64,000 nt of DNA. It comes from Allacma fusca. Taxonomy: Eukaryota > Arthropoda > Collembola > Symphypleona > Sminthuridae. Under the pieces are notes generated by a model. That model searched no databases. It saw nothing but the letters and a program-made list of their open reading frames with translations, and had not been told where the DNA came from. Every line of letters begins with the position of its first letter. Position 1 is the first letter of the stretch. Made by a program: the position numbers and the translations under genes. The stretch is taken from assembly GCA_947179485.1 (NCBI GenBank), contig OX359250.1, forward strand, positions 31,692,654 through 31,756,653. Direction: 5' to 3'. Shown piece after piece: positions 8,211 through 63,650 of the stretch.

Positions 8211-8756
8211 CTAAGAATTTACATTATTTTGTACGTTCAAAGGATGCATTTTACAGTGAGATTCTCCTGTTAAAATGCTTCTTGGACTAACTCCGAATGA
8301 GGGAGGGACTGCTGTTCCTAATGTTCTAGGGGAACTGTCATATTGGGGAAGTGGTGTTTGTGTTGTAAAATAAATGGGAGGATTACTTGGAGGCGTTGAA
8401 TTTGTTCTGGCAAGAAGGGCAGGGTCATTTTTAAGAGTATGATGACCCGATGGTGGAGGCATTGGTGAGGGCGATGGGATGGACCGACTAACGGAACCAG
8501 TTGGTCCAGCCATCATAGGCGCTGGGGTGGGGGTTTGAGGAACAGAAGTCGTCGCTGGAGTTGGGGGATGCGTTGCTTTCCAGTAGGCTTCAAGGTATTC
8601 CGCTAAGTGCTCACAGGCATCTTCTAGCTGATTCTCATCCAAAATCACATCAAACATTTCGGGCGGACATTGAGCCAACTTTTCAGCAGCTACCATTTGA
8701 ACGTTGAGGCTTCGAGCTTGAGATTTTCCTCTGGACTTAATAAGCCTTTGCAGGAC
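8211..8756 (-). CDS. Ca-beta: Ca-beta exon F (GK end and C-terminal tail)
   Basis: Starts [20 protein letters not shown] after an ACATAG acceptor and continues with [20 protein letters not shown] and [17 protein letters not shown], the canonical end of the GK domain. A Pro/Thr/Ser-rich tail of about 120 residues follows, to a TAG stop at 8213-8211. The tail has no recognised motif. The exon may also be spliced internally to the downstream candidate exon at 7745-8046, in which case its last few codons would be intronic in that isoform. Confidence 0.9.
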
Positions 8757-11700
8757 CTATGTACACAGGAAAGGAGTTTTTGTAAAATTAGAAGACCATA
8801 CTTAAGCCAGGAGTGAGAGAAATTCCCAGGTTTTTAGATTTGACTGCATGAAGAATACTCTCGTAATGAGAGGGAGAGAGAGAGACATCATGAATTATAA
8901 GACGTGGATTATTTGAAAAGTTTCTTCAAGTTGACAAGAATAAAACTTAAGTATATTTCTCATACCACAGAACTAACAACTTGCTGGAGATTATAAAATG
9001 TCTGGAAGACAGGAATAATAAAAAAAAAGGAGAGGGAAGTATACGGAGGAAAAGAAGTAAGGGCAAAAAGAAAATACAGAATTTGGCTAGAACTTCCACA
9101 ATACCTTCGGAGATGATATTTTCAAGTAGACGATGATGGGAGCTAAAGAGGTTTTTGCAAGTTGTGAAGGATGGTTGATTGTGTCGCAGTCGAGGACTAC
9201 CAACTGCAACGTTCTTGCCAACTCAAATATTCTTTCGATTTCAGCTTGCACTTCTGCCAGGCAAGAAGAGCGCGAGTTGGACCTCTCCATGATCGCTCGC
9301 TTGGACGGGTTGTTTAACAAGGATCTTTTGGCCAAAGAAATGTCCGCCGTCACCCTTGTGATTATAATCCTGTGTGTACAATATTCCAATGAACAACCTC
9401 TCTCGTACATTTCCAACATGCCCAGAAGCACTACGCCTGCACCTTTATCCTCCAAAACATTGTAATCATGACGAATTAAAGTAAACAATTCCAAAAACAC
9501 TCTGTTTGACAACATAAATTTGGACTGAGGCAACTCCTCTCGTCTCGCCACACATACTTGAGGGAAAAAAAGAAACCTCCGGGGACACTTACCTTCCTTC
9601 AAACTTGTGTTTAAGGAAGTCAAAAATGGCTTTTTGCATCATGTCGGTGACCTCGTAGCCCTTGAGGGAGGGACCAACAAGGACCACAGGTCTCATCGAA
9701 GGCACCACGTCGTAAGGAGGAATGTTTTCCTGCTTCTTGAAGAAGGGCTTTCGTTTTTCTTTAGCAGGTGGAGTTGTGATTGGTGTCTTCCCGAGTTTAG
9801 CATTCGCCAATGAGTCTGAATCTTCTCCTCCAGTCGTCCCATCCACGCCGTAATGATCTGCTTTTTTCCGTCACACACAAAATATAGTGTTATTGATCAA
9901 ACCCCGAAACCATTTTGCTATCTTCATTCAACATGTACGGGGAGAATTTTTTAAGCACACACAAAAAAAACCCTTCTGTCTATGGATATTTCCTGCATTA
10001 TTTCCTCTCGTCCCGAAATTCCTACTTAATAAACCAACGCCTCCAGTTTTACATGAAACTCCAACTTAGTTTTATACCTTCAAGTCTCCCCTACACGATA
10101 AATGTCACTAAATGTTGGAATGCTTTTGCATTAAAAATGTATTCAGTATTAAATGTTGAAATCTGTCCATGTTAAACGTCAATATGTATGTAGGTTAAGC
10201 CTTTCCTATGAGTCCAGTGTGGAAAAAAACAGTAGATATTGTATTGAAACTACAGGGACTCGTAACGTCTCTTTTGGTATGGCTGAGCTTCGATCTTTGA
10301 TCCAATTAGAATTTCATGCGATCAAATTAGAAAACACGTTAACTTTTATCTACCCGACCTTATTTCCTTTCAAATAGTTTAAATCATGTCATTGGCCCAC
10401 ATTCTGTATTTTTCACAAGATGTTTCCAAGAGACACACAACTTCCCAATATGTTCAATGCCTAAATACTCCCTCCTAGACCCTCCCCCTCCTGCAACACC
10501 ACTCTGAAATACAAAGCTCATTAGCTCCTCCGCTTTATAGTTGCTCCCCATTTGCATTCCATTACATTTGTCGCAGAAGGTGTGTGCCTGTCATTCCGAC
10601 CCACACTGACATTAGACTGACTGAGAGAGCTCAAAGGGAAAAAAACACAGGGATAATTTGTGAGTAATGGGGAAGGAGAAGTACTGGAAAAGTGAAAATC
10701 CAGTAGTTACCCAAATTGCTCGATGATGACGTTTTGGAAGAATAAAGTTTAGAGTTTCGAGCTTGTGAATGGAGTAGCCGGAGGTTCTCAAGTTTAACTG
10801 GGGAAGGAATAAACCCAACGTCACAACCTTCCTTCACGAGACGTCCGATCCACCAGTTGTTGTCGTACTTTTCCTACAGTCAAACCAAAAAAAAAATAGA
10901 ATAAGACCCGGACACTCCCGCTCACTTTCCTGAGATGGAAATCCCACAATATGATAAAAATCCCCCGTATTTGAATTAACAGGAGAAAATTGTGATAGCA
11001 TTTGTCACTTACTTTTATATGGAGAAAGTCTCGCATTCCAAAGGAAATCGCACTTCCATGGACTGGCGAGTCGTCGTCCAATGACCCATCGTAGCTTACG
11101 TTCGTTCGGACCGCAAATGCCACAGGCTTTGTCTATTAAATTGTTTACATCACACCATAAATTAGTCAGCACTTCAAATATTTCCCCAAAAAAGCAATAA
11201 CCACTTGTTCTTCCCCTATTAGAACGCTACTAACCCTTGGTCTTTGAATAAGGAACGGGATTTCAGTGGAGAATGTGTACACAAGCAATGTAGTTCAAAC
11301 AAGTCGTACTTATTTCACTTGAAACAGCTGCCACCAATGAATAAAGACTGGGGGAAAGGAGTAATAGCTGTTTGGATACGGGAAAAGGCATTACTCTCAC
11401 ATCATAGTAGACTTGACTTCATTGTAGTTCAAACTGAACTGCTAGAATTTTCCTTGTTATTTTTTGAGATAAGTAAAAGTTGTTCTCTGCAATGTATATG
11501 CATTCCAGGGAAGTCACATGCGGAGATGAGGAGTTGTTCATGATATTGAATCATCCAAGTATTTTTGTCATTTTCTCAATAGCACTTGATTAAATCATGG
11601 AAATGATGAGTAAGTACTCAAGGGTTAGTAATACTGTACCATATGCAGAGCATATTACATTATCCGGGGAATATCATTACAAAAACTACAGTTGCAGAGA

Positions 11701-37500: not shown

Positions 37501-37504
37501 GTAT
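37501..37504 (+). repeat. Target-site duplication, left copy
   Basis: GTAT immediately before the 5' LTR. Its partner is 44932-44935. Four bases is a normal target-duplication size for Ty3/Gypsy integrases. Confidence 0.85.
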
Positions 37505-38005
37505 TGTAAAGGATTTTATCATTTACTAGTTGCTATGGTTATGGGCTTGGTATTGATGGCTGTTACTACTACCCAAGCGGAGTAGCTACACCAGAGCTAG
37601 TCATTTAATATGATTGGCTTAGTCTGGTGTGTATTTAGATTTAATTTATAATTTAAGGATTTGGATGTCGGGACGAAAGAAAACCGGCAGATTCTTTCTG
37701 ACCTCTGAGATTCTCAGACGTATGAGTGAATCGCGGCCTCTGAGATTCTCAGTAGTCGTTTTCCATTTAAAGGTTACTAACCGTTTCTGACTGTTTACAG
37801 GTCTAGTTTGCTTTAGCAGTGTGCTTTAGCTTATTCTTCTCAATTATTCAATTCAAGCTTTGTGGTGCACTTAGCCCTCTATTCTAATTGTTGTAATTAT
37901 AAGATTACTATTGAGTTTCATATTGTTCTTGTTTACGAGGAAATAAACCTTGTTCAACTGTATATTTATAGGGAATTGTATTGAGCCATAATAATATTCC
38001 TTATA
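37505..38005 (+). repeat. 5' LTR
   Basis: 501 bp, matching 44431-44931. It contains an AATAAA polyadenylation signal at 37942-37947 and two copies of a 13-base palindrome with a central T (37705-37717 and 37740-37752). It starts TG and ends TA rather than the more usual CA. The gag frame is open back into the LTR through a TTG codon at 37981, but the first ATG lies outside it. Confidence 0.97.
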
Positions 38006-38025
38006 AATTCTGCTCAACCGGGATC

Positions 38026-39774
38026 ATGCCGAAAAAGAATAGAAAGAGCGTAGCTACTATGTCATCCTTCGTGGATGAAGCTCAAGGTAATGATAGTAGC
38101 AAGGATCAAGGTTCAGGTCATCTGGATAGTTTATGTGAAAACTTATTAGGTAAGATGACTGAACTAATGAATAGTAAATTCGCAGATATAGAGAGGAAAT
38201 TGCAATTTACTGTAGGAGAAAATCAGGCATCAGTTACTATGGTTACAGGTCAGTCTAATGGAAATGTTGTACCAAACAGGAGGCATAGTGATACTGAAAT
38301 CGTCAATGGTGCAGATAACTTCTCTAATACTCCTATTGGTAGGTTTGCTAATTTTAATAGACCTGAAGTTGTAAATTTGGATAGTGAGTTTCGAGGAGAC
38401 AAAACTCAAATGCAAGGGCGTACTATACAAAGTGGTATTCCTCTGAGGCGAACAGGTACTTTTGATTGGAGTCGCGGTTATACCAATGATTCTTCTCAAC
38501 CTATCTTAGACCCATTGACAAACAATAATCAGGGCTATGTTCCATCGTTTGAGAATTCAGGAAAAAATGTAGGTAATTCACAAATCCATGCAGGACCAAC
38601 TCATAGATTCAACTCTCAAAGTTCTGATTCTTTTGGTAATAATCATTCATTTGATAACAATGCACGGGAGCCAATTGGTCAAATGAGTAATAGAGAATCT
38701 CGTCAGAGGCTCAGAGCTAAGGACGTATCTATTCCCAAGTACGCTGGGGCTCATGAAAAGAAGACTCCTTACGATTTTCTTTTGGAATTAGAGAAATACC
38801 AAGTTGCAGTTGGGTATAACGATGACGAACTGTTACAGTTAGTCATACCATATGCTCTGGTGGATGATGCCTACTTATGGTATAGGCGAGTTGCAAAAAT
38901 GTTCTCATTTGCAAACTTCCAAGATTTTAGGACTTATTTCCGTCAAGAGTTTCAAAGTGGTAATTATTGCAAGAGAATGTTGAGGGAGCTTGACAATAGA
39001 TACCAAGGAATTGAGGAGCCTTTGTCTAAATTCATTTGTATTATAGATGATTTTTACGAGAGAATTAATCCATCTATCCCAGAGTCTACTCGAATTGAAA
39101 AAATTATTGAGCTCATGCACCCACATTATCGGGCAAAAGTAACTTCATTCCGGCGAACGTTTACTAAGATCAGGGATTTAATGGAAGTTGCGTACGAAGC
39201 TCAAAATAGTGTCGCTTTGGACAGGGAATATCGACAACCGAATTGGAATGCTGGATTAGAGCCATCTTTGTCGTATAAGGAGAATAAAGGGTTTGATAGT
39301 TCTGGACATAAAAATATTCCAGAAATTCAGAAAGGTTCCTTTGACCAATTCGCTTCATTCCATTCATTTATTCACAAGTCTAATAGTAATGGGAAACAAA
39401 ATTCGCCAGATAGCGACAGTAATTGGAGAAAATCTAGTAACGGCAGTAAAAGTAGCTTTCCACGTAGCAACAGTCCTTACCCCCGAGATCGACACAGCAG
39501 CTCGGGGAAAGAGAACTCTCACAATGAGAACAATCAGCCTCAGTTTGATTCATCACGACAGCAACGAACATCATCTGGTGACCGAGAAAACAACGGGGAG
39601 GTAACAGGTCATGAACGTGGGCGAAGCTCTGAAAGGTGTAGTGCCGATAGGAGTAGGTTAGGAACTCCAAATAATAAAAACCAAACTGGGTTTAGTAGGG
39701 AAAATAGCCGTGAAAACTCGAGTGAAAGGAAAGTTCATTTTTCGGGAAACGGGCAAGTACTGAATCCTCAGTGA
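38026..39774 (+). CDS. gag: gag (capsid polyprotein) of the LTR retrotransposon
   Basis: A 582-residue protein from the first ATG (38026), only 20 bp after the 5' LTR. An upstream in-frame TTG at 37981 lies inside the LTR and is not preferred. Residues 1-225 are Asn/Ser-rich and disordered-looking. Residues about 226-400 hold a retrotransposon-gag capsid-type domain, with VSIPKYAGAHEKKTPYDFLL, DDAYLWYRRV and FRTYFRQEFQ as recognisable landmarks. Residues about 420-582 are Ser/Asn/Arg-rich and basic. No CCHC zinc knuckle is present, so RNA binding may rest on the basic tail (inference). It ends at TGA 39772-39774. A -1 shift near the end leads into pol. Confidence 0.9.
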   Translation: MPKKNRKSVATMSSFVDEAQGNDSSKDQGSGHLDSLCENLLGKMTELMNSKFADIERKLQFTVGENQASVTMVTGQSNGNVVPNRRHSDTEIVNGADNFSNTPIGRFANFNRPEVVNLDSEFRGDKTQMQGRTIQSGIPLRRTGTFDWSRGYTNDSSQPILDPLTNNNQGYVPSFENSGKNVGNSQIHAGPTHRFNSQSSDSFGNNHSFDNNAREPIGQMSNRESRQRLRAKDVSIPKYAGAHEKKTPYDFLLELEKYQVAVGYNDDELLQLVIPYALVDDAYLWYRRVAKMFSFANFQDFRTYFRQEFQSGNYCKRMLRELDNRYQGIEEPLSKFICIIDDFYERINPSIPESTRIEKIIELMHPHYRAKVTSFRRTFTKIRDLMEVAYEAQNSVALDREYRQPNWNAGLEPSLSYKENKGFDSSGHKNIPEIQKGSFDQFASFHSFIHKSNSNGKQNSPDSDSNWRKSSNGSKSSFPRSNSPYPRDRHSSSGKENSHNENNQPQFDSSRQQRTSSGDRENNGEVTGHERGRSSERCSADRSRLGTPNNKNQTGFSRENSRENSSERKVHFSGNGQVLNPQ

Positions 39775-39806
39775 GGGAGATTCAGTCAAATGTAACTTTA
39801 CCTCAC
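39744..39806 (+). promoter_or_regulatory. -1 programmed ribosomal frameshift signal (gag to pol)
   Basis: The heptamer GGGAAAC at 39744-39750 lies in the exact X XXY YYZ register of gag (TCG GGA AAC). An 8-nt spacer is followed by stem 1, ACTGAATC (39759-39766) pairing with GATTCAGT (39779-39786). Stem 2 is GTGAGG (39771-39776) within the loop pairing with CCTCAC (39801-39806). Together they form an H-type pseudoknot with loops of 4, 2 and 14 nt. The -1 frame is open from the slip site into protease. gag stops 21 nt after the heptamer. This would set a low Gag-Pol to Gag ratio. The pairing is perfect by sequence; frameshifting itself is inferred. Confidence 0.88.
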
Positions 39807-40904
39807 AATAAGAGTATCGATATTGAGTTCCCTCCAGTGTGTATGGAAGTAGAGTTATTGGGAGAAATTTCACCCGCTCTGCTAGATCCTGGATCAGGAA
39901 TTTCTGTTTTAGGACCTATGTATATTAAACTTATCCAAGAAAAATCTATTCCTATTGTCCAAGAGGTTGTCCCAGTTAGAACTGCTAGTGGTATAGGGAA
40001 TACAGTAGGATTTGTTGAGCTTAGCATGAAGTGCCCTATAGGTGAAGTCCCAGTGAAATATGCATTAATGCCTACCTACGGCAAGAATGTACTTCTAGGT
40101 AGGAATTTCTTAGGTACGCACGGTATAATTGTAAATGTTGGTGAAAGTTCTTGGCAAGTGTGTTCTAATAATGAAACAGTTAAGGATATCGATTGTCACC
40201 ATATTGTATCACTTGATTCAGAAGAGGGTAGATTCCATGATATGTTAGATTCTTTTAAAGACGACAATCATACCATCTTAAAAACAGGACATGAGAATTT
40301 AGTTGAAACAGGTTCAGTAGAGGGCGATAGGAATATAGAATTTAGATCTGCTGCCATTAATTCAGAGAATATTAAATTAATTGATGAACATATTGATAGC
40401 AATGAAGATCTGTCCGAGGATGATAAAGAGAAATTCAAACATTTGTTTTATAAATTCTCTAAAATGTTTTCTAAAAAACCTGGGAGGTGTAATTTAGTTA
40501 AACATAAAATAGAAACAGGTGATGCGAAACCTGTCTTTTCTAAAGCCCGTCCAATGTCACCAGCTAAAAGAGCTATCTTCCAAAATGCTGTTGACGAACT
40601 TTTAGAAATGGATTTGATCGAACGTTGTGAAAGTGCTTGGTCCTCGGAACCTGTTATTGTCCCTAAAAAGAATGGTGATGGTTCCGTGGGTTATAGAGTA
40701 ACGTTTGATTATCGTAGACTCAATAAAGTTACAGTTCCTAATAAAAACTGTGCCCCCAGGTTGCAAGATATAATAGTGGCTCTTTCAAATGGCAGAATAT
40801 TTACAGTTTTGGACCAGCCTTCTAGTTATTTTCATATTGCGGTAGACGAAGATAGTAGGGATAAAACCGCGTTCAGGGGTCCTCGAGGATTTTTTTCGGT
40901 TTAA
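39771..40904 (+). CDS. pol: pol, first part: protease and start of reverse transcriptase
   Basis: In the -1 frame relative to gag, overlapping its end, and presumably translated only by frameshifting from 39744-39750; the GTG at 39771 is not a likely start. The retropepsin-like domain has its active-site motif as LLDPGSG (Asp at 39885), with Pro where Thr or Ser is usual, and the later motif LLGRNFLGTHG. Reverse transcriptase begins near KPGRCNLVKHKIETGDAKPV and continues through SSEPVIVPKKNGDGS, VTFDYRRLN and FTVLDQPSSYFHI, the last carrying the first catalytic Asp. The frame ends at TAA 40902-40904, only because a T-run at 40890-40896 has one base too many; the rest of the domain continues in the +1 frame. 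Confidence 0.9.
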   Translation: MREIQSNVTLPHNKSIDIEFPPVCMEVELLGEISPALLDPGSGISVLGPMYIKLIQEKSIPIVQEVVPVRTASGIGNTVGFVELSMKCPIGEVPVKYALMPTYGKNVLLGRNFLGTHGIIVNVGESSWQVCSNNETVKDIDCHHIVSLDSEEGRFHDMLDSFKDDNHTILKTGHENLVETGSVEGDRNIEFRSAAINSENIKLIDEHIDSNEDLSEDDKEKFKHLFYKFSKMFSKKPGRCNLVKHKIETGDAKPVFSKARPMSPAKRAIFQNAVDELLEMDLIERCESAWSSEPVIVPKKNGDGSVGYRVTFDYRRLNKVTVPNKNCAPRLQDIIVALSNGRIFTVLDQPSSYFHIAVDEDSRDKTAFRGPRGFFSV

Positions 40905-40953
40905 AGTTGTACCATTTGGTCTCATTAACTCCGGAGCATCATATCAAGAGGCT

Positions 40954-43098
40954 ATGGAAATGGCACTAGGAGATGCTTTATGGATTTATGTCATTGTCTA
41001 TGTAGATGACACTATTTGCTGGAGTGATACGATTGAAAATCATCTAATACATTTAGAAAGTATCCTGACTGCACTTTCTGTGAACGGGTTTCACATAAAC
41101 CCCAAAAAGATTCAGATAGCAAGAAAATCTGTAGTCTTCCTCGGATACGAAATAGGTGATGGAAAATATAAGCCTCTTGATGATAAAATACGTATCTTAA
41201 AGGAGTATCCAGTCCCAGGGAATGTGAAGGAAGTCCAAAAATTTTTAGGTTTTGTAGGCTTCTACCGTATGTTTTTCGACAAATTTGAGAACCTGGCTCG
41301 ACCATTGTATAGGTTGCTACAGAAAAATGTTAAATTTTTCTGGCGTGAGGATTGTCAAGTTGCATTTAATTCTCTGCGAAAGGGGCTTACTGACGCAACG
41401 TGCTTATATATGCCAAATCTCAACGAGCCTTTCTTAATTATGACTGATGCTAGTAACACTGGAGTTGCAGGTATCCTTATGCAGGAGAGAGACGGGTTAC
41501 GTTTTCCTATCTGGTTTATTAGTAGGGGTCTTACTCCAGCAGAACGAAATTACTCTACCACGGAAAAAGAGGCTCTTGCAATTATTTTCTCAATTAGAAA
41601 ATTTCGTGGCTTCATAGAGCTGGTTCACTTTACGGTAGAGACAGATCATCGTTCCCTTACTTATTTAAAAACGATTAAGGATCCTACCGGCAGAATTGCA
41701 CGTTGGATGATAGAGCTACAGGGATACTCATTTGATGTAAAATATAGGCGTGGGATCCATAACGAAGCTGCTGATTGTTTATCCCGAATGCATGAAGTGT
41801 TTTCAGTAGACCCTGAAGGAATCTTAAGTCGTGATACATTCATTGAGAAGCAAACTCAGGATAAATTATTGTCACAAGTAATTATGTATTTACGTGATCC
41901 CGTGGAACAGGCTGAGGCTCTTACCGTCAAACTTGCTCGGGATGCTACAGTTTCCAACGATGGGTGTTTGTACAAATACGTTGGCTCACTTGTTAAACCA
42001 TGGGAGAATGAAGCAAAGTTTTGGAAAATGTGGGTTCCAGCAGCATTAGTAAGTGCAATACTCACCTATTACCATTCTAATGACTTATCTGGGCATATGG
42101 GTGTGCGTAAAAGTTATCTTAGGATAGAAGAAAGATTCTATTGGAAGGGCATGCGAAGAGATGTGGTCATATTCGTAAAACGCTGTGAGATCTGCCAGAA
42201 AACCAAAGCTGCACGATCCACTAAGATTGGAATTGGAACTTCCCCAAATATAGGATTTCCGTGGCAAAATGTCTGCTGCGATCTTCTAGGACCATACGTT
42301 AAAGGAAGGAAAGGTTTTAAGTATCTTTTAGTAGTTACATGCTATACTACAAAGTATGTTGAGATTTTTGGGCTTCGAGCTGCTACTGCCACAAATATTA
42401 TTAAGAAGCTATGGCTTGTATTTACTAAATGGGGGTTTCCAAGAACCTTAACAACTGACAATGGTTCTCAGTTCAGTTGCAAAAAGTTCATCTCATGGTG
42501 TGAGTCAATTGGGGTAAAAGCTTGGAAAATTCCAAATTACCACCCCCAAAGTAACCCTTGCGAACGTACAAACAGAACTGTGAAAGACAGAATTGTTACT
42601 CAGATCGACTCTTGCTCTGACTGGGCCAGTAAGTTAGACGAAGTAGCATTTGCAATTAATACTTCTGTCAATGATACTACGGGGTTCTCCCCCGTTTACT
42701 TAAATTTTGGACGTGAGTTATGTACACCGCTGGATAATGCATTGCAACTTCATAGTTCGGGAGTTGATTCTGACGATTTTTCTAATCGACTACAATTAAT
42801 TCAAAATTTTGGAAAGAACAATGCATTGACAAGTCAGTTTAAGTATATGCTCGGGTACAACAAGGATAAGGTTGCATCCAAGTTCAAAGAAGGAGATCTA
42901 GTCTACTCTGTTGCACTAAATATATCTAGCGCAGAGAAGGGTATAACTAGGTCCTTGTGTAAAAAGTATAATGGCCCTTTTGTCATAAAAAAGTTAGTAA
43001 CTCAGAATATATGTGATCTAAAATGTCCAATTACATCCAAAACACTTGGTAGGGTTCATGTGTCGCGTCTCAAACCGGCACATGTAAACAAAACTTAA
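40954..43098 (+). CDS. pol: pol, second part: RT palm, RNase H and integrase
   Basis: A 714-codon frame. Homology is already continuous from 40897, so the ATG at 40954 is internal and not a true start. The RT catalytic box is YVDD (40999-41010). RNase H is marked by FLIMTDASNTG, STTEKEALAI and NEAADCLSRM. Integrase has an HHCC zinc finger (HSNDLSGHMG ... CEICQ). Its catalytic core has Asp at 42280, Asp at 42457 (TTDNGSQF) and Glu at 42562 (PCERTNR), giving D-58-D-34-E. A C-terminal GPY/F-like module follows (KYNGPFVIKKL). No chromodomain is visible. It ends at TAA 43098. Confidence 0.93.
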   Translation: MEMALGDALWIYVIVYVDDTICWSDTIENHLIHLESILTALSVNGFHINPKKIQIARKSVVFLGYEIGDGKYKPLDDKIRILKEYPVPGNVKEVQKFLGFVGFYRMFFDKFENLARPLYRLLQKNVKFFWREDCQVAFNSLRKGLTDATCLYMPNLNEPFLIMTDASNTGVAGILMQERDGLRFPIWFISRGLTPAERNYSTTEKEALAIIFSIRKFRGFIELVHFTVETDHRSLTYLKTIKDPTGRIARWMIELQGYSFDVKYRRGIHNEAADCLSRMHEVFSVDPEGILSRDTFIEKQTQDKLLSQVIMYLRDPVEQAEALTVKLARDATVSNDGCLYKYVGSLVKPWENEAKFWKMWVPAALVSAILTYYHSNDLSGHMGVRKSYLRIEERFYWKGMRRDVVIFVKRCEICQKTKAARSTKIGIGTSPNIGFPWQNVCCDLLGPYVKGRKGFKYLLVVTCYTTKYVEIFGLRAATATNIIKKLWLVFTKWGFPRTLTTDNGSQFSCKKFISWCESIGVKAWKIPNYHPQSNPCERTNRTVKDRIVTQIDSCSDWASKLDEVAFAINTSVNDTTGFSPVYLNFGRELCTPLDNALQLHSSGVDSDDFSNRLQLIQNFGKNNALTSQFKYMLGYNKDKVASKFKEGDLVYSVALNISSAEKGITRSLCKKYNGPFVIKKLVTQNICDLKCPITSKTLGRVHVSRLKPAHVNKT

Positions 43099-43848
43099 CC
43101 AGCGTAGATGTGGTATGAATGGCTGCTATCGTTGTAGTAGGCGGCGCAAGGAACAAAATGTAAGAGTGATTGGACCATGAGAGATTAAATGTGTATGAAA
43201 GTGTTGCATAATTGTGTTGTGTATATGGAAGCCGAAACACGATAGCACAGTTTTCTACGGTTGTAAGTATAAGAGCCTGAAAGTCTTATAACTGTAGTCC
43301 GGTGTGAATGATAATTGGAACTAGTGCAATTTTTAGAATGTCATTCGGTGTTTTAGATTCCTTATAGTATCTATGTTTATTTCTGACCGTCATAACTTCA
43401 AATCACAATTGACCTAGTGATATCCATTTTATTTTTGGGGAGAGTGACACAATTACAATTGTTGATCTTTGTTGACTCTAATGCTTTGATCAATGACTAT
43501 GTCAAAAGCAAACGTTTGAACCATTGAGTAAAATCTACCAATTAGGATCCTCTAATCTGTGAGGTTGCGAGTGCAACACTAGATATAAACTCAGGAATGA
43601 ACTATGGCGAACATCTGAAATGAGTGTTCTCAACTGTCACATTCTCTTTCAAAATTTTATACAAATACTTTCTTACGTATTGACCAGTTGGAGTTGGAAA
43701 ACTGAGTATGAGTTTACTGCACAATTGTGTTTAGCATTTCGATAGTTTTTTTACTTCCCCTGAGATGAAGTTAACAACTGTAATAAAGAGTGACCAGGGT
43801 AAGTACCCATAGTATGAAATTGAATTTAAGAATATATTTCATTCCTTG
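43099..43848 (+). other. Non-coding spacer of the retrotransposon between pol and ORF3
   Basis: About 750 bp inside the element with stops in all forward frames. No known motif was identified. Confidence 0.6.
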
Positions 43849-44319
43849 ATGGCAGTGGCAGCAATAAATATATTCAATGTTTGGTGCAAGTATAATTGTA
43901 CTTTTGTAATCTTCCTAGCAAAATCAGAGATCAACTTAGATCGTATCAGGATTCTCCAAGTTCTTCGGCGGGCTCAGAATAGTACAGGGGGGCCTAGAAT
44001 TTCCTCGAAAAAACTGCGTGAAAAAGCCCGATCAGCGGCTTTCTACGCTTATATGCATCGACTGGCCAGGCCATCGGTATCACATCGAGTCTCAGTGTCG
44101 AATACATCAAAACCAAAGGGTCTGTCGGAATTTATAGTCGCTGATCAAAAATCTCGGGAAAGTGTCCATACTGACACAGGGATCATTGCATCTACCACTG
44201 TCCCTGAAGACATAAAAACAGTCTCGTCTCAAGTAACCGTTGGGGCAGTAAAAAAAGGATACGATGTATGCTCGTTGATTCCTACTGTCGAAGCTCAAAA
44301 CACCCAGTCGGGACCATAG
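43849..44319 (+). CDS. Third ORF of the retrotransposon, function unknown
   Basis: A 156-codon frame from ATG 43849 to TAG 44317-44319, between pol and the 3' LTR, where some Ty3/Gypsy elements keep env or an accessory gene. The first 26 residues are fairly hydrophobic (MAVAAINIFNVW, TFVIFLA). Residues 40-80 are strongly basic (RISSKKLREKARSAAFYAY). The rest is Ser/Thr/Val-rich. It is too short for an envelope and shows no furin-type site or fusion segment. No homology was recognised. It may be an accessory protein or non-coding 3' sequence that happens to be open. Confidence 0.4.
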   Translation: MAVAAINIFNVWCKYNCTFVIFLAKSEINLDRIRILQVLRRAQNSTGGPRISSKKLREKARSAAFYAYMHRLARPSVSHRVSVSNTSKPKGLSEFIVADQKSRESVHTDTGIIASTTVPEDIKTVSSQVTVGAVKKGYDVCSLIPTVEAQNTQSGP

Positions 44320-44418
44320 ACGATCATCTGTTTAGTAGCTTAGGAGCCCTAGTTTTATGTTATTCCAGTTTTCGTGCTGCTATTGCTAACTAGACTTATA
44401 ATGACTTCGTCTCTTTTT

Positions 44419-44427
44419 AGGGGAGAA
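44419..44427 (+). promoter_or_regulatory. Polypurine tract
   Basis: AGGGGAGAA, ending three bases before the 3' LTR. This is the expected place for the plus-strand primer of reverse transcription. Confidence 0.8.
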
Positions 44428-44430
44428 TTA

Positions 44431-44931
44431 TGTAAAGGATTTTATCATTTACTAGTTGCTATGGTTATGGGCTTGGTATTGATGGCTGTTACTACTACCC
44501 AAGCGGAGTAGCTACACCAGAGCTAGTCATTTAATATGATTGGCTTAGTCTGGTGTGTATTTAGATTTAATTTATAATTTAAGGATTTGGATGTCGGGAC
44601 GAAAGAAAACCGGCAGATTCTTTCTGACCTCTGAGATTCTCAGACGTATGAGTGAATCGCGGCCTCTGAGATTCTCAGTAGTCGTTTTCCATTTAAAGGT
44701 TACTAACCGTTTCTGACTGTTTACAGGTCTAGTTTGCTTTAGCAGTGTGCTTTAGCTTATTCTTCTCAATTATTCAATTCAAGCTTTGTGGTGCACTTAG
44801 CCCTCTATTCTAATTGTTGTAATTATAAGATTACTATTGAGTTTCATATTGTTCTTGTTTACGAGGAAATAAACCTTGTTCAACTGTATATTTATAGGGA
44901 ATTGTATTGAGCCATAATAATATTCCTTATA
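44431..44931 (+). repeat. 3' LTR
   Basis: 501 bp, matching the 5' LTR offset by 6,926 bp, with no difference found by eye. The polyadenylation signal AATAAA is at 44868-44873. Confidence 0.97.
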
Positions 44932-44935
44932 GTAT
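44932..44935 (+). repeat. Target-site duplication, right copy
   Basis: GTAT immediately after the 3' LTR, matching the left copy at 37501-37504. Confidence 0.85.
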
Positions 44936-49301: not shown

Positions 49302-52045
49302 GTGAGTCCTCATTCCAGTATTTTTTTTTTATAAATTATATCTAATCCCGGAGAAAGCCAACAACTTTTCCTTCTGACGGTTGAGTCTCTCCGGCTTATA
49401 CAGGCTATCTGAGGGTTTTTATACATCTTCCATTTATTATATCATCCCCGACAAGAGCAAATGTGACCATTACCATTCAGCTCAACTCACTTGGCTTATG
49501 AATTGTTTATAGGATAACCCGTGCCAGCACCCAATTGTGATTCTGAAAGATGTTCGTTACCAGGATATGGAGTCACTTCTTAATTTCATGTACCATGGAG
49601 AAGTTCAAATTTGTCAGGATGACCTCACAGAGTTTCTCAGAACTGCACAAACACTCCAAGTGAAAGGTCTCACGGATGTCCCACATATATCACCTCCAAG
49701 ATCACCAAGATCCCCTGCTCATTCCGCCACTCCACCACCATTGCACATTCCTGAGGTCAGACTTGAGAATTTATCGGATGACCCGAGCTGTGACTCCACC
49801 TCCAAGCGCTTGACAGCCGAGGACGCTGGAGGGGAGCGCTGTCAAGAAAATCACAATCATTACAATAATCATTCACAAGAGACTCATTCTGACACACCGG
49901 AAGCGGGCAACGAAGAGAAGGAAACGACAGATCATGATAGAGTCGATAACCATAACACAGATGGGAATGAAACTGAAAAGCGATCCTCAAATCACACCAG
50001 CATTCTCATCCAAGCCCTGGAACAAGGTCGTCAAAATTTCGATCGAGATCGAACAGATAATAATGCTAGCAAGCACGTTCCCAATCATCCCAATGGTTAG
50101 CATTCTTTTAACTCTTTAACCATTTTTTTATTCCTGTTAGTTCCGACACGTGTCAGACCCACTCTTCGTACTGTGCTACGCTGTAACCTTTGGGAAAAAG
50201 TTCAGTTTCTTTACTTCAGCTTTTTTTTTTTTTTTAAATGATAATCAATGAAATTTTTCTTGAAGTCATGGTGAATTATTGTGATAGGATGAGGAGGAAT
50301 AAAAAAAAGCGGGATTTTGTTAAGACGGTCTTAAACCGAATCGGTCCCGCTAGGACATCGGTTCTTGGCATTATTTCAAAATTTTGCAATTTTATCAAGA
50401 CATTCGGGTAGTCAAAAGTATTTTAATATTTTGTAATAAAAAAATTAGTGAGTTTATAAAATTTTCTAAAGCTTATGTTTATGAAATAGTTAGTAATATC
50501 TATCTGCTCAGCCTCATCTATCTCACCGAATTTCTGTGAGATGGATGAGGTTACATGCACATGATAACTGTGTACGGTACGAGGTTTGGGTCGAAAATCC
50601 ATGTTACAAGGAGTAAAGGATGAAATGAGATATTTGAAAAAGTCATGAAATGTTTGGTGATTTGTGAACAGCCATGGTAATCGACGAGGACAGCTCACCG
50701 GATGAGGCCGAGATGAAGTACGACGATAAAGCGATGGATGGAATAGAATCTTGTGAAGAACTTTCAGCCCATGCTTTGACCGAGGCTATGAGATTTCCAG
50801 CTGCAGCAGCACTTCTTGGTTTCCAAGGTATGTATCGGTAATCTAGATACTTGACTCTTTTTAAAGGCGGAATGTTTATTATTAAAATCGATCCAGTAGT
50901 ACGTGTGATACTAGTATTGATTTTTTGGTAGATTCAATAAGGAGTGCTATTTTTAAACTGTGAAATACATATTTATGTTGAATACATATAAGCCTGAAAA
51001 ATTTTACAAGCCCAGTTCCTGGTCTGATATTTAAAGAGATATTTTATATAATATTTGAAGTTAATGGCAATAGATCATACTATACTATATAAGAGATGTT
51101 GGGATTTTGTGATTTGCATTTGATGATCTGTGATTTTATTGGGATTTCAGGTCTTCCAGGATTTCTTCCAGGGCCGTCAAGTATGCAGAATAATAGCTCA
51201 TCGTTGGATGGTGAGATTTTGATGAGTAATAAATTTTAGAGAAGACATAATTTAATGATTAGTAATTAATTTCTTGATTTTTTTGATTTTTTGATTTTTT
51301 AGTTTCTCGACGAAGTCTTGACATGCTTCGAGTGAGAGCTACGGACCCACGACCGTGCCCAAAATGTGGCAAAATATACAGATCAGCTCATACACTTCGT
51401 ACACATCTCGAGGATAAGCATACAATCTGTCCGGGGTATAGATGCGTGCTCTGCGGTACAGTCGCCAAATCAAGAAATTCACTTCATTCTCATATGAGTC
51501 GTCAGCACCGTGGCATTTCCACCAAAGATCTTCCAGTCTTGCCGATGCCTGCTCCTTTTGATCCTCAGCTAGCAGCTCGCCTTCTAGCAAAGGCCGGAAT
51601 AAAATTTCCATCGCCGGATATTGCTACAGGGTGAGTTATTTCTAAAGTCCTTGTGCTTCTAAATATATGTAATAATTGATTTGCTCTCATGTTCATGTTC
51701 TGATGTGATCAAACCCCATTCTCCCCTCTGATTAGTGCATCACCAACTTCAGTGAGACGCTCAGGCTTGGAAGTGACACCGATTTTACCGTCAGATAATA
51801 AACCTGGGAGTCCCAAATCTGGACGATCAGGATCTATCCCAGGGGCGCCAAAAATGGATACAGGAACGACCGGATCAGCAATTTTGGATACTTACCTTCA
51901 ATTCATTGCCGAAAACTCAATAGCTTTTGGGGGGCCGCTGCAATATTCACAACGTAATGCAAGTCACCATCGGAGTGCCGGTGGTGATAAAAGTCAAGGC
52001 CATTCTTCGGAAATTGGTGATGAATCCGGTGAGGAAGACCCGTAA
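49116..52045 (+). CDS. ab: BTB-C2H2 zinc-finger transcription factor, Abrupt-like
   Basis: Complete gene: exons 49116-49301, 49513-50095, 50672-50827, 51151-51210, 51303-51630 and 51736-52045. Phases are 0,1,1,1,2 and total 540 codons plus stop. Residues about 5-120 are a BTB domain of the BAB/TTK type (YSLRWNDFYANIISAFKTL; VDVTIACDGKSLKAHQVIL). A long acidic/His/Asn linker follows. Two C2H2 fingers come next (C347, C350, H363, H368; C376, C379, H392, H397), then a Ser/Gly tail. The fingers and the SRRSLDMLRVRATDPRPCP lead-in match the Drosophila Abrupt type, a nuclear factor in dendrite and epithelial patterning. It is shorter than fly Abrupt. Another BTB-ZF paralogue cannot be excluded. Confidence 0.82.
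49513..50095 (+). CDS. ab: ab exon 2 (BTB, second half, and acidic linker)
   Basis: Begins DNPCQHPIVILKDVRYQD after TTTATAG and continues MESLLNFMYHGEVQI to the end of the BTB fold. It then becomes a Pro/Ser and Asp/Glu/His/Asn-rich linker. The donor is AATG|GTTAGC, phase 1. Confidence 0.9.
50096..50671 (+). other. ab intron 2
   Basis: A 576-bp intron containing a 14-base T-run near 50220. Nothing else is seen in it. Confidence 0.8.
50672..50827 (+). CDS. ab: ab exon 3 (acidic linker)
   Basis: A short exon between TGAACAG and GTATGT, phase 1 on both sides. It encodes an acidic stretch (VIDEDSSPDEAEMKYDDKAM) and an Ala/Leu patch (RFPAAAALLGFQ). It is supported by open frame, splice signals and exact phase with both neighbours; the LLGFQ end leads into LPGFLPGP of the next exon. 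Confidence 0.85.
50828..51150 (+). other. ab intron 3
   Basis: A 323-bp AT-rich intron with GTATGT and TTTCAG ends. Nothing else is seen in it. Confidence 0.8.
51151..51210 (+). CDS. ab: ab exon 4 (60-bp microexon)
   Basis: Sixty bp between GGGATTTCAG and GTGAGA, phase 1 on both sides. It encodes LPGFLPGPSSMQNNSSSLD. Its length is a multiple of three, so it could be skipped without shifting the frame. Confidence 0.8.
51303..51630 (+). CDS. ab: ab exon 5 (two C2H2 zinc fingers)
   Basis: After a T-rich tract and TTTTTAG it encodes SRRSLDMLRVRATDPRP, both C-x2-C-x12-H-x4-H fingers (CPKCGKIYRSAHTLRTH; CVLCGTVAKSRNSLHSH) and ISTKDLPVLPMPAPFDPQ. The donor is GTGAGT, phase 2. Confidence 0.93.
51736..52045 (+). 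CDS. ab: ab exon 6 (C-terminal tail)
   Basis: Acceptor GATTAG. It encodes ASPTSVRRSGLEVTPILPS, a Gly/Ser-rich tail, LDTYLQFIAENSIAFGG, and an acidic end (GDESGEEDP) before TAA 52043-52045. Confidence 0.87.
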
Positions 52046-62465: not shown

Positions 62466-63650
62466 GTGAGAACTTCTTCCTCTCTATTTCCGATCCCAGG
62501 CTTTTTTTTTTACTATTTTCGAAATATATACAATCCATAATATTGAATCGAACCCCCTAATATTGTCAATTGTCCCTTTTGAAACCCTGAAATAATTTTT
62601 GTTTCAATTCCAGGGACCCACAGAAGCCGAGAAAAAACTTGAAGAACTAACCCGGCAAATTGAGGAAGAACTTGCTAAGCAGGAAGAGCAAGGAGCTTAT
62701 TTCGGTGAATTAATTTCTATTTTAGTTACCACACGCTAAAGTATAGTTAAGATTTTTTTTGTGCAATGTACCCAAGATTAAGCGAAGGTCAAAGAGAAAA
62801 ACATGGCAATAAACTTGTCCAATCTGAAATTTTACATAGTGGAAACACATTTGTACAAATGTGTTTTTGCTGTAGAATTTCGTCATCTACATTTCGGTAC
62901 ATAGGAGTATTTAGAATTGGTCACACTCTTTTATTCGGAATTATTCCTCTATGTGCTTTCCAGGTATATGCCATACATGCGGGGAGAAAGTAACTGGAGC
63001 TGGACAAGCCTGTCAAGCAATGGGTAATTTATACCATACAAATTGCTTTGTGTGCGTTTCGTGTGGTAGGGCTCTTCGAGGGAAAGCATTTTACAACGTT
63101 CACGGGAAAGTATACTGTGAAGAAGACTATTTGTACTGTGGTTTCCAACAAACTGCTGAACGTTGCTCATTGTGTGGACATCTCATTATGGAAACCGTAC
63201 GTGACCCTCACTCTGACTCTGTACTATATACTCAACTATATATAATTAATGCTCAACTCCCATATGCAAACATTGAATTAAATCTCAGATTCTGCAAGCA
63301 ATGGGAAAACCTTACCATCCTGGTTGCTTCCGCTGTTGCATCTGTAACGAGTGCCTGGATGGAGTGCCATTCACAGTAGACATGGACAACAAAATTTATT
63401 GTGTCAACGACTACCATGCAATCTTTGCACCCATTTGTGCAGCATGTGGCAAATCAATTACACCTATTGAGGTTTCAGCCCTTTCCACTCTCCAACTAAT
63501 GAGTTTTCATCTAATTACTGCCCCCATATGGATGAGTATCAAAAATAATATCAATAAATACGTATCTTACTTTTTTTCCAGGGCACTGAGGAAACAGTTC
63601 GGGTTGTGTCAATGGATAAAGATTTCCATGTGGATTGCTACTCCTGTGAA
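61347..63650 (+). CDS. jub: Ajuba/LIMD1/WTIP-family LIM protein, 3' end outside window
   Basis: Adaptor of the Ajuba family, which links adherens junctions to Hippo signalling (binding Warts/LATS) and also shuttles to the nucleus (established for the family). Exons: 61347-62465, 62614-62704, 62964-63196, 63289-63471, 63582-63650 and beyond; phases 0,1,0,0,0. The start ATG at 61347 is preceded directly by an in-frame TGA. Residues 1-403 form the disordered pre-LIM region with poly-Pro, a PPPY motif (166-169) and two PIYENL motifs (146-151, 233-238). LIM1 starts [16 protein letters not shown]2 [27 protein letters not shown]3 [13 protein letters not shown]. The [15 protein letters not shown] and [12 protein letters not shown] signatures mark Ajuba rather than zyxin/LPP. 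LIM3 is incomplete here. Confidence 0.92.
62614..62704 (+). CDS. jub: jub exon 2 (pre-LIM helix)
   Basis: Ninety-one bp after TTCAATTCCAG, encoding [20 protein letters not shown] and [10 protein letters not shown]. This is a charged, probably helical segment just before LIM1, also seen in Ajuba/zyxin relatives. The donor is GTGAAT, phase 1. Confidence 0.88.
62964..63196 (+). CDS. jub: jub exon 3 (LIM1 and start of LIM2)
   Basis: Acceptor GCTTTCCAG. It encodes [40 protein letters not shown] and [20 protein letters not shown], then [11 protein letters not shown]. The donor is GTACGT, phase 0. All LIM1 zinc ligands are present. Confidence 0.95.
63289..63471 (+). CDS. jub: jub exon 4 (LIM2 and start of LIM3)
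   Basis: Acceptor AAATCTCAG. Sixty-one codons: [56 protein letters not shown]. The donor is GAG|GTTTCA, phase 0. Confidence 0.94.
63582..63650 (+). CDS. jub: jub exon 5 (middle of LIM3)
   Basis: Acceptor TTTTTTTCCAG. Twenty-three codons, [20 protein letters not shown] then SCE. The donor is a consensus GTAAGC, phase 0. The remaining LIM3 ligands must lie past the window end. Confidence 0.92.

Follow-up and report, generated by a model that had tools for sequence, protein, structure and literature searches.

How Pol is made by a long terminal repeat (LTR) retrotransposon whose pol frame is out of register with gag is the question raised by a locus of the springtail Allacma fusca (assembly GCA_947179485.1, contig OX359250.1, forward-strand positions 31,692,654 to 31,756,653). 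This whole stretch of 64,000 nucleotides (nt) is referred to as the window; coordinates are positions within it, and features lie on its plus strand unless stated otherwise. The retrotransposon occupies 37505-44931. Its gag gene (38026..39774) runs from an ATG at 38026 to a TGA at 39772-39774, and the first open stretch of pol (39726..40904), in the -1 frame, covers the overlap with gag, the protease and the start of the reverse transcriptase, the overlap measuring 49 nt. A second open stretch of pol (40846..43098) encodes the remaining reverse transcriptase, RNase H and integrase. Gag-Pol is very probably made by -1 ribosomal frameshifting, stimulated by a predicted H-type pseudoknot that begins 8 nt beyond a slippery heptamer in the overlap.

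The gag frame, of 601 codons, contains two in-register heptamers of the form X_XXY_YYZ, and the only one in the overlap is GGGAAAC (39744..39750), read as G GGA AAC. An 8-nt spacer (39751..39758) separates it from the two stems of the pseudoknot, S1 and S2. The 5' arm of S1, ACTGAATC (39759..39766), is followed by the 4-nt loop L1 (39767..39770) and by the 5' arm of S2, GTGAGG (39771..39776), which holds the gag stop codon. Between the helices lie the two nucleotides of L2 (39777..39778), followed by the 3' arm of S1, GATTCAGT (39779..39786), the 14-nt loop L3 (39787..39800) and the 3' arm of S2, CCTCAC (39801..39806), which is situated beyond the gag overlap. All eight pairs of S1 and all six of S2 are complementary in the window copy. 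An earlier note on this DNA had proposed a heptamer in the exact gag register, an 8-nt spacer, a perfect 8-base-pair (bp) S1 and a 6-bp S2 closed by CCTCAC, and each of these parts is found at its proposed position; its further claim that the -1 frame is open into protease also holds, the frame being open from 39726 onward through that domain. The arrangement is that of the retrovirus-type -1 signals, with the heptamer in the upstream frame within the overlap, a short spacer and then a predicted pseudoknot.

When ribosomes translating gag reach G_GGA_AAC, the pseudoknot, which lies 8 nt further on, would be positioned at their mRNA entrance. Some of them would slip both tRNAs one base back, to GGG_AAA, and continue into the protease, reverse transcriptase, RNase H and integrase to give Gag-Pol, and the unslipped ribosomes would stop at the UGA within S2 to give Gag. 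We infer slippage, its efficiency and the exact three-dimensional fold from sequence.

Could such a structure arise by chance? H-type pseudoknots were scored with nearest-neighbour stacks and Dirks-Pierce-style penalties, allowing spacers of 4-9 nt. The estimate over 39759-39806 is approximately -12.8 kcal/mol. Dinucleotide shuffles with the same spacer range attain this score in 4 of 20,000 cases, and in 1 of 1000 in a separate shuffle run. The two strands of the window together hold 1164 slippery heptamers, and none of the others is followed by a pseudoknot that scores better. Six of 7355 start positions along the element score equally, and all six represent the same pseudoknot; when no heptamer was required, 1 of 1500 random window positions was equal or better. 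A chance origin was rejected on the basis of these shuffles and comparisons. The Rfam search returned a single match, to a long non-coding RNA, with an E-value of 1.6 and below the gathering score.

The host genome that was searched for relatives comprises 392.7 Mb. A DNA query detected ten places, including the window, and GGGAAAC is present in 10/10 (the window and nine loci). A search with the protein encoded at the start of pol returned 103 rows; four of these are further pieces of elements represented by another row, and the remaining 99 loci (L011-L109) are not independent, many being near-identical copies. A motif search resolved 41 distinct cassettes, plus the L079 type, which it had missed. 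One of the heptamers GGGAAAC, GGGAAAT or GGAAAAC together with both S2 arms is present exactly in 63 of the 99 loci (counting a one-base slide of S2 in the L061 type), within one mismatch in 77 and within two in 83. When the arms were placed at random in these loci 20,000 times, both fell within one mismatch in 57 cases; this null was computed for at most one mismatch, the count of 83 allowing two. The earlier note had named copies that keep the heptamer and freely lose both stems as the case that would speak against a frameshift signal; such copies were looked for, and 83 of the 99 loci came out the opposite way. GGGAAAT without the S2 arms occurs in two of the 99 loci, and in three none of these heptamers turned up within the searched stretch.

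In 94 of the 99 loci a slippery heptamer lies near the gag-pol junction, whether or not this structure accompanies it, a frequency that, with the covarying structure at fixed spacing, argues against an incidental heptamer. Internal entry is a conceivable route to pol, and production of pol by internal entry or by re-initiation after the gag stop has hardly any likelihood here. Seventeen family representatives were tested against shuffles, and in 13 of them the pseudoknot is equalled by no more than 6 of 2000; these 17, like the 18 representatives used for the tree and the fourfold-codon counts below, were picked by hand, approximately one per family. At the protein level, homologues are Gags of Allacma fusca and of metagenomes, and Allacma fusca protein P0004 corresponds to locus L020, with 100% identity over stretches of 137 and 112 residues. 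Gly-Asn, the reading of GGA AAC, stands 8-11 residues from the Gag end in 7/7 cases (six complete ends and the Gag part of P0009, whose end was set by the author), each with a chance probability of 0.03-0.23, an argument now superseded by the DNA. No DNA relatives were detected in IMG/VR, GTDB genomes or phage records.

Covariation was assessed in two sets of aligned cassettes. The larger set, A5, comprises 30 of the 41 distinct cassettes; L056 and L090 (insertions or deletions), L058-L060 (longer L3), and L061, L062, L064, L068, L070 and L078 (shorter L3, slid S2) were left out. The smaller, A6, comprises 20 distinct cassettes in one register, and is A5 without ten CCACC-type cassettes that do not fit the S1 register (L042, L045, L047, L052, L055, L069, L077, L084, L089 and L108). 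The length of L3 is constant throughout the 30 cassettes of A5, and its sequence is variable. In A6, 92.1% of cells pair, versus 31-45% in slid controls, and two-sided changes are seen at four S1 pairs; in A5, 86.0% of cells pair, with slid controls at 30-46%, and five S1 pairs change on both sides. The covariation score is 0.203 in A6 (shuffled mean 0.119) and 0.165 in A5 (0.108 shuffled), and 0 of 500 shuffles, which do not keep relatedness, score as high in either set.

Some cassettes have S1 rewritten, as in L018 (TCTGAACC/GGTTCAGA), in L021, with CTGGGC/GCCCAG within its arms, and in the L079 family, which has CCCGAGC/GCTCGGG and a 7-bp S2. On a FastTree tree of 18 families, computed from protein regions that exclude the cassette, S1 pairs 1, 6 and 7 change 7, 5 and 4 times, respectively, some of the changes leading to non-pairs and several nodes having low support. 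Five CCACC-type cassettes that were computed (L042, L045, L047, L055 and L059) form S1 only with a single A bulged out and the spacer reduced to 6 nt, and score -14.0 to -17.6.

S2 behaves differently: it pairs in 95.8% (A6) and 95.6% (A5) of cells. The pol-frame reading of its arms is Val-Arg (GTG AGG) and Pro-His (CCT CAC). Its two fourfold-degenerate codons are GTG in 18/18 and CCT in 16/16 representatives, and their third base changes 0 times on the 18-family tree, on which 14 other fourfold columns change 4-9 times. The gag stop codon within the 5' arm is not the whole reason for this freeze, because gag already ends at a TAG one codon upstream in 14 of the 30 A5 cassettes, and GTGA is retained in every one of these 14, with the full GTGAGG in 13. 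Synonymous changes in the arms do occur among the 30 cassettes: CAC becomes CAT in five, with a G-U pair kept, and changes that break a pair are found once each, as GTA (L052) and AGA (L108). In the L061 type, AGA occurs together with a helix that has moved by one pair, to GGTGAG/CTCACC.

By codon inspection, five of the six S2 pairs are not exchangeable through synonymous changes on both sides, so that ordinary coding explains in part why two-sided changes are missing. The sixth pair (A-U to C-G) could be exchanged in cassettes with the earlier gag stop, yet A-U is found in 30/30 cassettes. It is possible, though unlikely, that S2 is frozen because its sequence is used as well, for example if the ribosome or some factor contacts it, or if it serves in splicing. 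A reading in which GTGAGG is frozen mainly as a splice donor, with pol or part of it translated from a spliced RNA, draws on the resemblance of GTGAGG to the donor consensus and on the Allacma fusca gene model P0009, in which the Gag end SGNGQTLNR is joined to integrase. It leaves the heptamer, the S1 covariation and the frozen 3' arm unexplained, the gene model is probably automatic, and we consider this reading very unlikely.

Several observations weigh against frameshifting stimulated by the pseudoknot, and some of them favour a rival in which -1 frameshifting is stimulated by a plain stem-loop, formed by S1 and perhaps extended inward by CUC/GGG, with the S2 arms kept for other reasons. 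Nested folds lie close in energy: the extended 11-bp hairpin reaches -11.7 kcal/mol over 39759-39806, near the pseudoknot estimate, and the best nested fold of 39751-39812 reaches -15.4 kcal/mol when the spacer may pair. Folding, which the earlier note had suggested as a check, fails to separate the pseudoknot from the hairpin by energy alone. In a fixed register S2 has no two-sided compensatory change, only G-C to G-U changes and a few losses, so that the case for its pairing is built on its conservation, on the constraint at synonymous sites and on the slide by one pair in the L061 type. Eleven of the 99 loci, none of them above 30% identity, have GGGAAAC without these S2 arms, and in the seven of them that were folded stem-loops are more stable than pseudoknots. 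In four of the 17 families no pseudoknot is found unless a bulge is allowed.

The covariation statistics also have weak sides. The number of two-sided pairs is reached by 10/500 (A6) and 8/500 (A5) shuffles, and the number of further pair types by 270/500 and 482/500; related sequences can moreover outscore such shuffles without any structure. S1 pair 8 is unpaired in 14 of the 20 A6 cassettes, so the common S1 stem is 7 bp. All DNA relatives are drawn from one genome, the window copy is broken in its reverse transcriptase, and some relatives are decayed.

Because energy does not separate the folds, the choice between pseudoknot and hairpin is decided by the relatives. For the inner hairpin pairs (CUC/GGG) the paired share is 50% of cells, without any two-sided change, versus 92.1% for S1 and S2 together in the same 20 cassettes, and the pseudoknot is preferred on this ground. 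CCTCAC lies outside any hairpin and past the gag overlap, yet its fourfold codon is unchanged. The extended hairpin was rejected as a replacement for S2 since it is not conserved, its energy not being the ground, and a plain stem-loop stimulator at this site is improbable. Of the two stems for which the earlier note had called for covariation, S1 has the two-sided changes; S2 is conserved and synonymously frozen but lacks them in a fixed register.

The eleven distant loci (L094-L096, L098, L099 and L102-L107; 25-30% identity) have GGGAAAC at the junction. In the seven folded, a long stem-loop begins approximately 6-8 nt downstream, comprising ten perfect pairs in L102, and such pseudoknots as these loci offer are less favourable than the nested fold. 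Predicted pseudoknot and stem-loop stimulators thus appear in related elements of one genome, which could therefore show how one replaces the other. The slippery site itself shifts among GGGAAAC, GGGAAAT and GGAAAAC within the clade. GGAAAAC, a one-base departure from X_XXY, is found in most CCACC-type cassettes and in all L079-type cassettes seen; PMC5009743 mentions that, in insect-specific flaviviruses among others, the shift site opens with G_GA. The predicted frameshift stimulator of a Ty3 clade can be seen evolving within one genome, S2 remaining near letter-identical and S1 being rewritten by compensatory changes.

How does this signal compare with known ones? GGGAAAC sites of JSRV, MPMV, SRV-1, SRV-2, SMRV, HERV-K10, SA-OMVV, CAEV and FIV are tabulated in PMC3835772, where a spacer of 6-9 nt is given as typical. 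Judged from that table, whose column meanings were inferred from its text, the betaretroviral and lentiviral sites share the heptamer and have a spacer of 4-7 nt (8 here), an S1 of 6-10 bp (8), an S2 of 6-7 bp (6) and a long loop of 9-15 nt (14). They differ in having an L1 of 1-2 nt and nothing between the helices, compared with an L1 of 4 nt and 2 nt between the helices here, and they belong to retroviruses, not to an arthropod LTR retrotransposon. PEG10, a domesticated mammalian Ty3/Gypsy gene, has GGGAAAC in the overlap of two frames of Ty3 descent, a downstream pseudoknot and a -1 product, as described in PMC2800197; it is an immobile host gene with a reported 5-nt spacer, and the comparison made here is of the heptamer only.

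The yeast Ty3 element, which also belongs to Ty3/Gypsy and is related from reverse transcriptase to integrase (7q5b_A), relies on a +1 shift at GCG_AGU_U, aided by a 3' stimulator that is believed to need no mRNA pairing, according to PMC5009743. A 2003 survey summarized in the same source found pol in the -1 frame in 28/51 animal retroelements, most of them in Drosophila melanogaster and many with classical heptamers. These have the same arrangement as the springtail element, and the passage on them describes no pseudoknots or covariation. Given the 28/51, the suggestion of the earlier note that arthropod Ty3 elements seldom carry such a signal has a weak footing. Because GGGAAAC with an H-type pseudoknot is classical in betaretroviruses, some lentiviruses and PEG10, and a -1 pol is common in animal retroelements, the type of signal is known and its springtail member is new.

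In the open-licence literature searched, no report joins Collembola, a retrotransposon and a frameshift. The cassette stands as a well-supported predicted -1 frameshift signal in a springtail, none having been found in print for the group in the searches made. Its standout feature is the quality of the natural variant series: more than 40 distinct variants in one genome form a series in which spacer length, S1 stability, loop sizes and heptamer can be set against efficiency.

The element is classified as a Ty3/Gypsy LTR retrotransposon. The 5' LTR (37505..38005) and the 3' LTR (44431..44931) are each 501 bp, identical, and of the form TG...TA, and they are flanked by a 4-bp GTAT target-site duplication (37501-37504 and 44932-44935). 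The LTRs, the short target-site duplication and the order protease-reverse transcriptase-RNase H-integrase are those of Ty3/Gypsy (Metaviridae), and the best PDB match by sequence is the Ty3 Gag-Pol chain 7q5b_A (E 2.8e-73); the placement follows from this match and the domain order. Gag has a weak match to Retrotrans_gag (PF03732), under the curated cut-off. In four close copies (L012-L015), which share the -1 arrangement, pol is open over 1123 residues and the gag frame stays open as far as the fetched sequence extends. The 20 nt between the 5' LTR and the gag ATG (38006-38025) contain no TGG, and no exact complement longer than 6 nt was found between 38004-38032 and the LTR; neither an ordinary tRNA 3'-end primer-binding site nor a self-primer is therefore seen.

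The window copy has a frame break within the reverse transcriptase (40846-40904) despite its identical LTRs, possibly an assembly error. A near-identical copy, L005/L016 (G000:C10, near 20462000), is missing 2 nt upstream of the heptamer, which fuses gag and pol into one open frame of 1708 residues; frameshifting would be needless there, because the two share a frame.

A CCHC zinc knuckle is common in the Gag of Ty3/Gypsy elements and is not defining. No CCHC pattern was found in the 582-residue Gag of the window, and the related Gags P0001-P0003 carry such a knuckle near the C terminus. The protease active-site motif (39885-39893) is Asp-Pro-Gly (LLDPGS), the usual retropepsin motif being Asp-Thr/Ser-Gly. 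Pro occupies that column in 16 of 18 families, and Asp-Thr-Gly is present in the L079 type, L102, L105 and P0007; a clade-wide Asp-Pro-Gly retropepsin, if true, would be unusual. In the 1.3 kb separating pol from the 3' LTR, an open frame of 168 residues (43813-44319) has no Pfam match. Outside the element, likely host exons with guanylate kinase, BTB and LIM domains are located at 8211-9638 (minus strand), 49513-50100 (plus) and 62915-63379 (plus).
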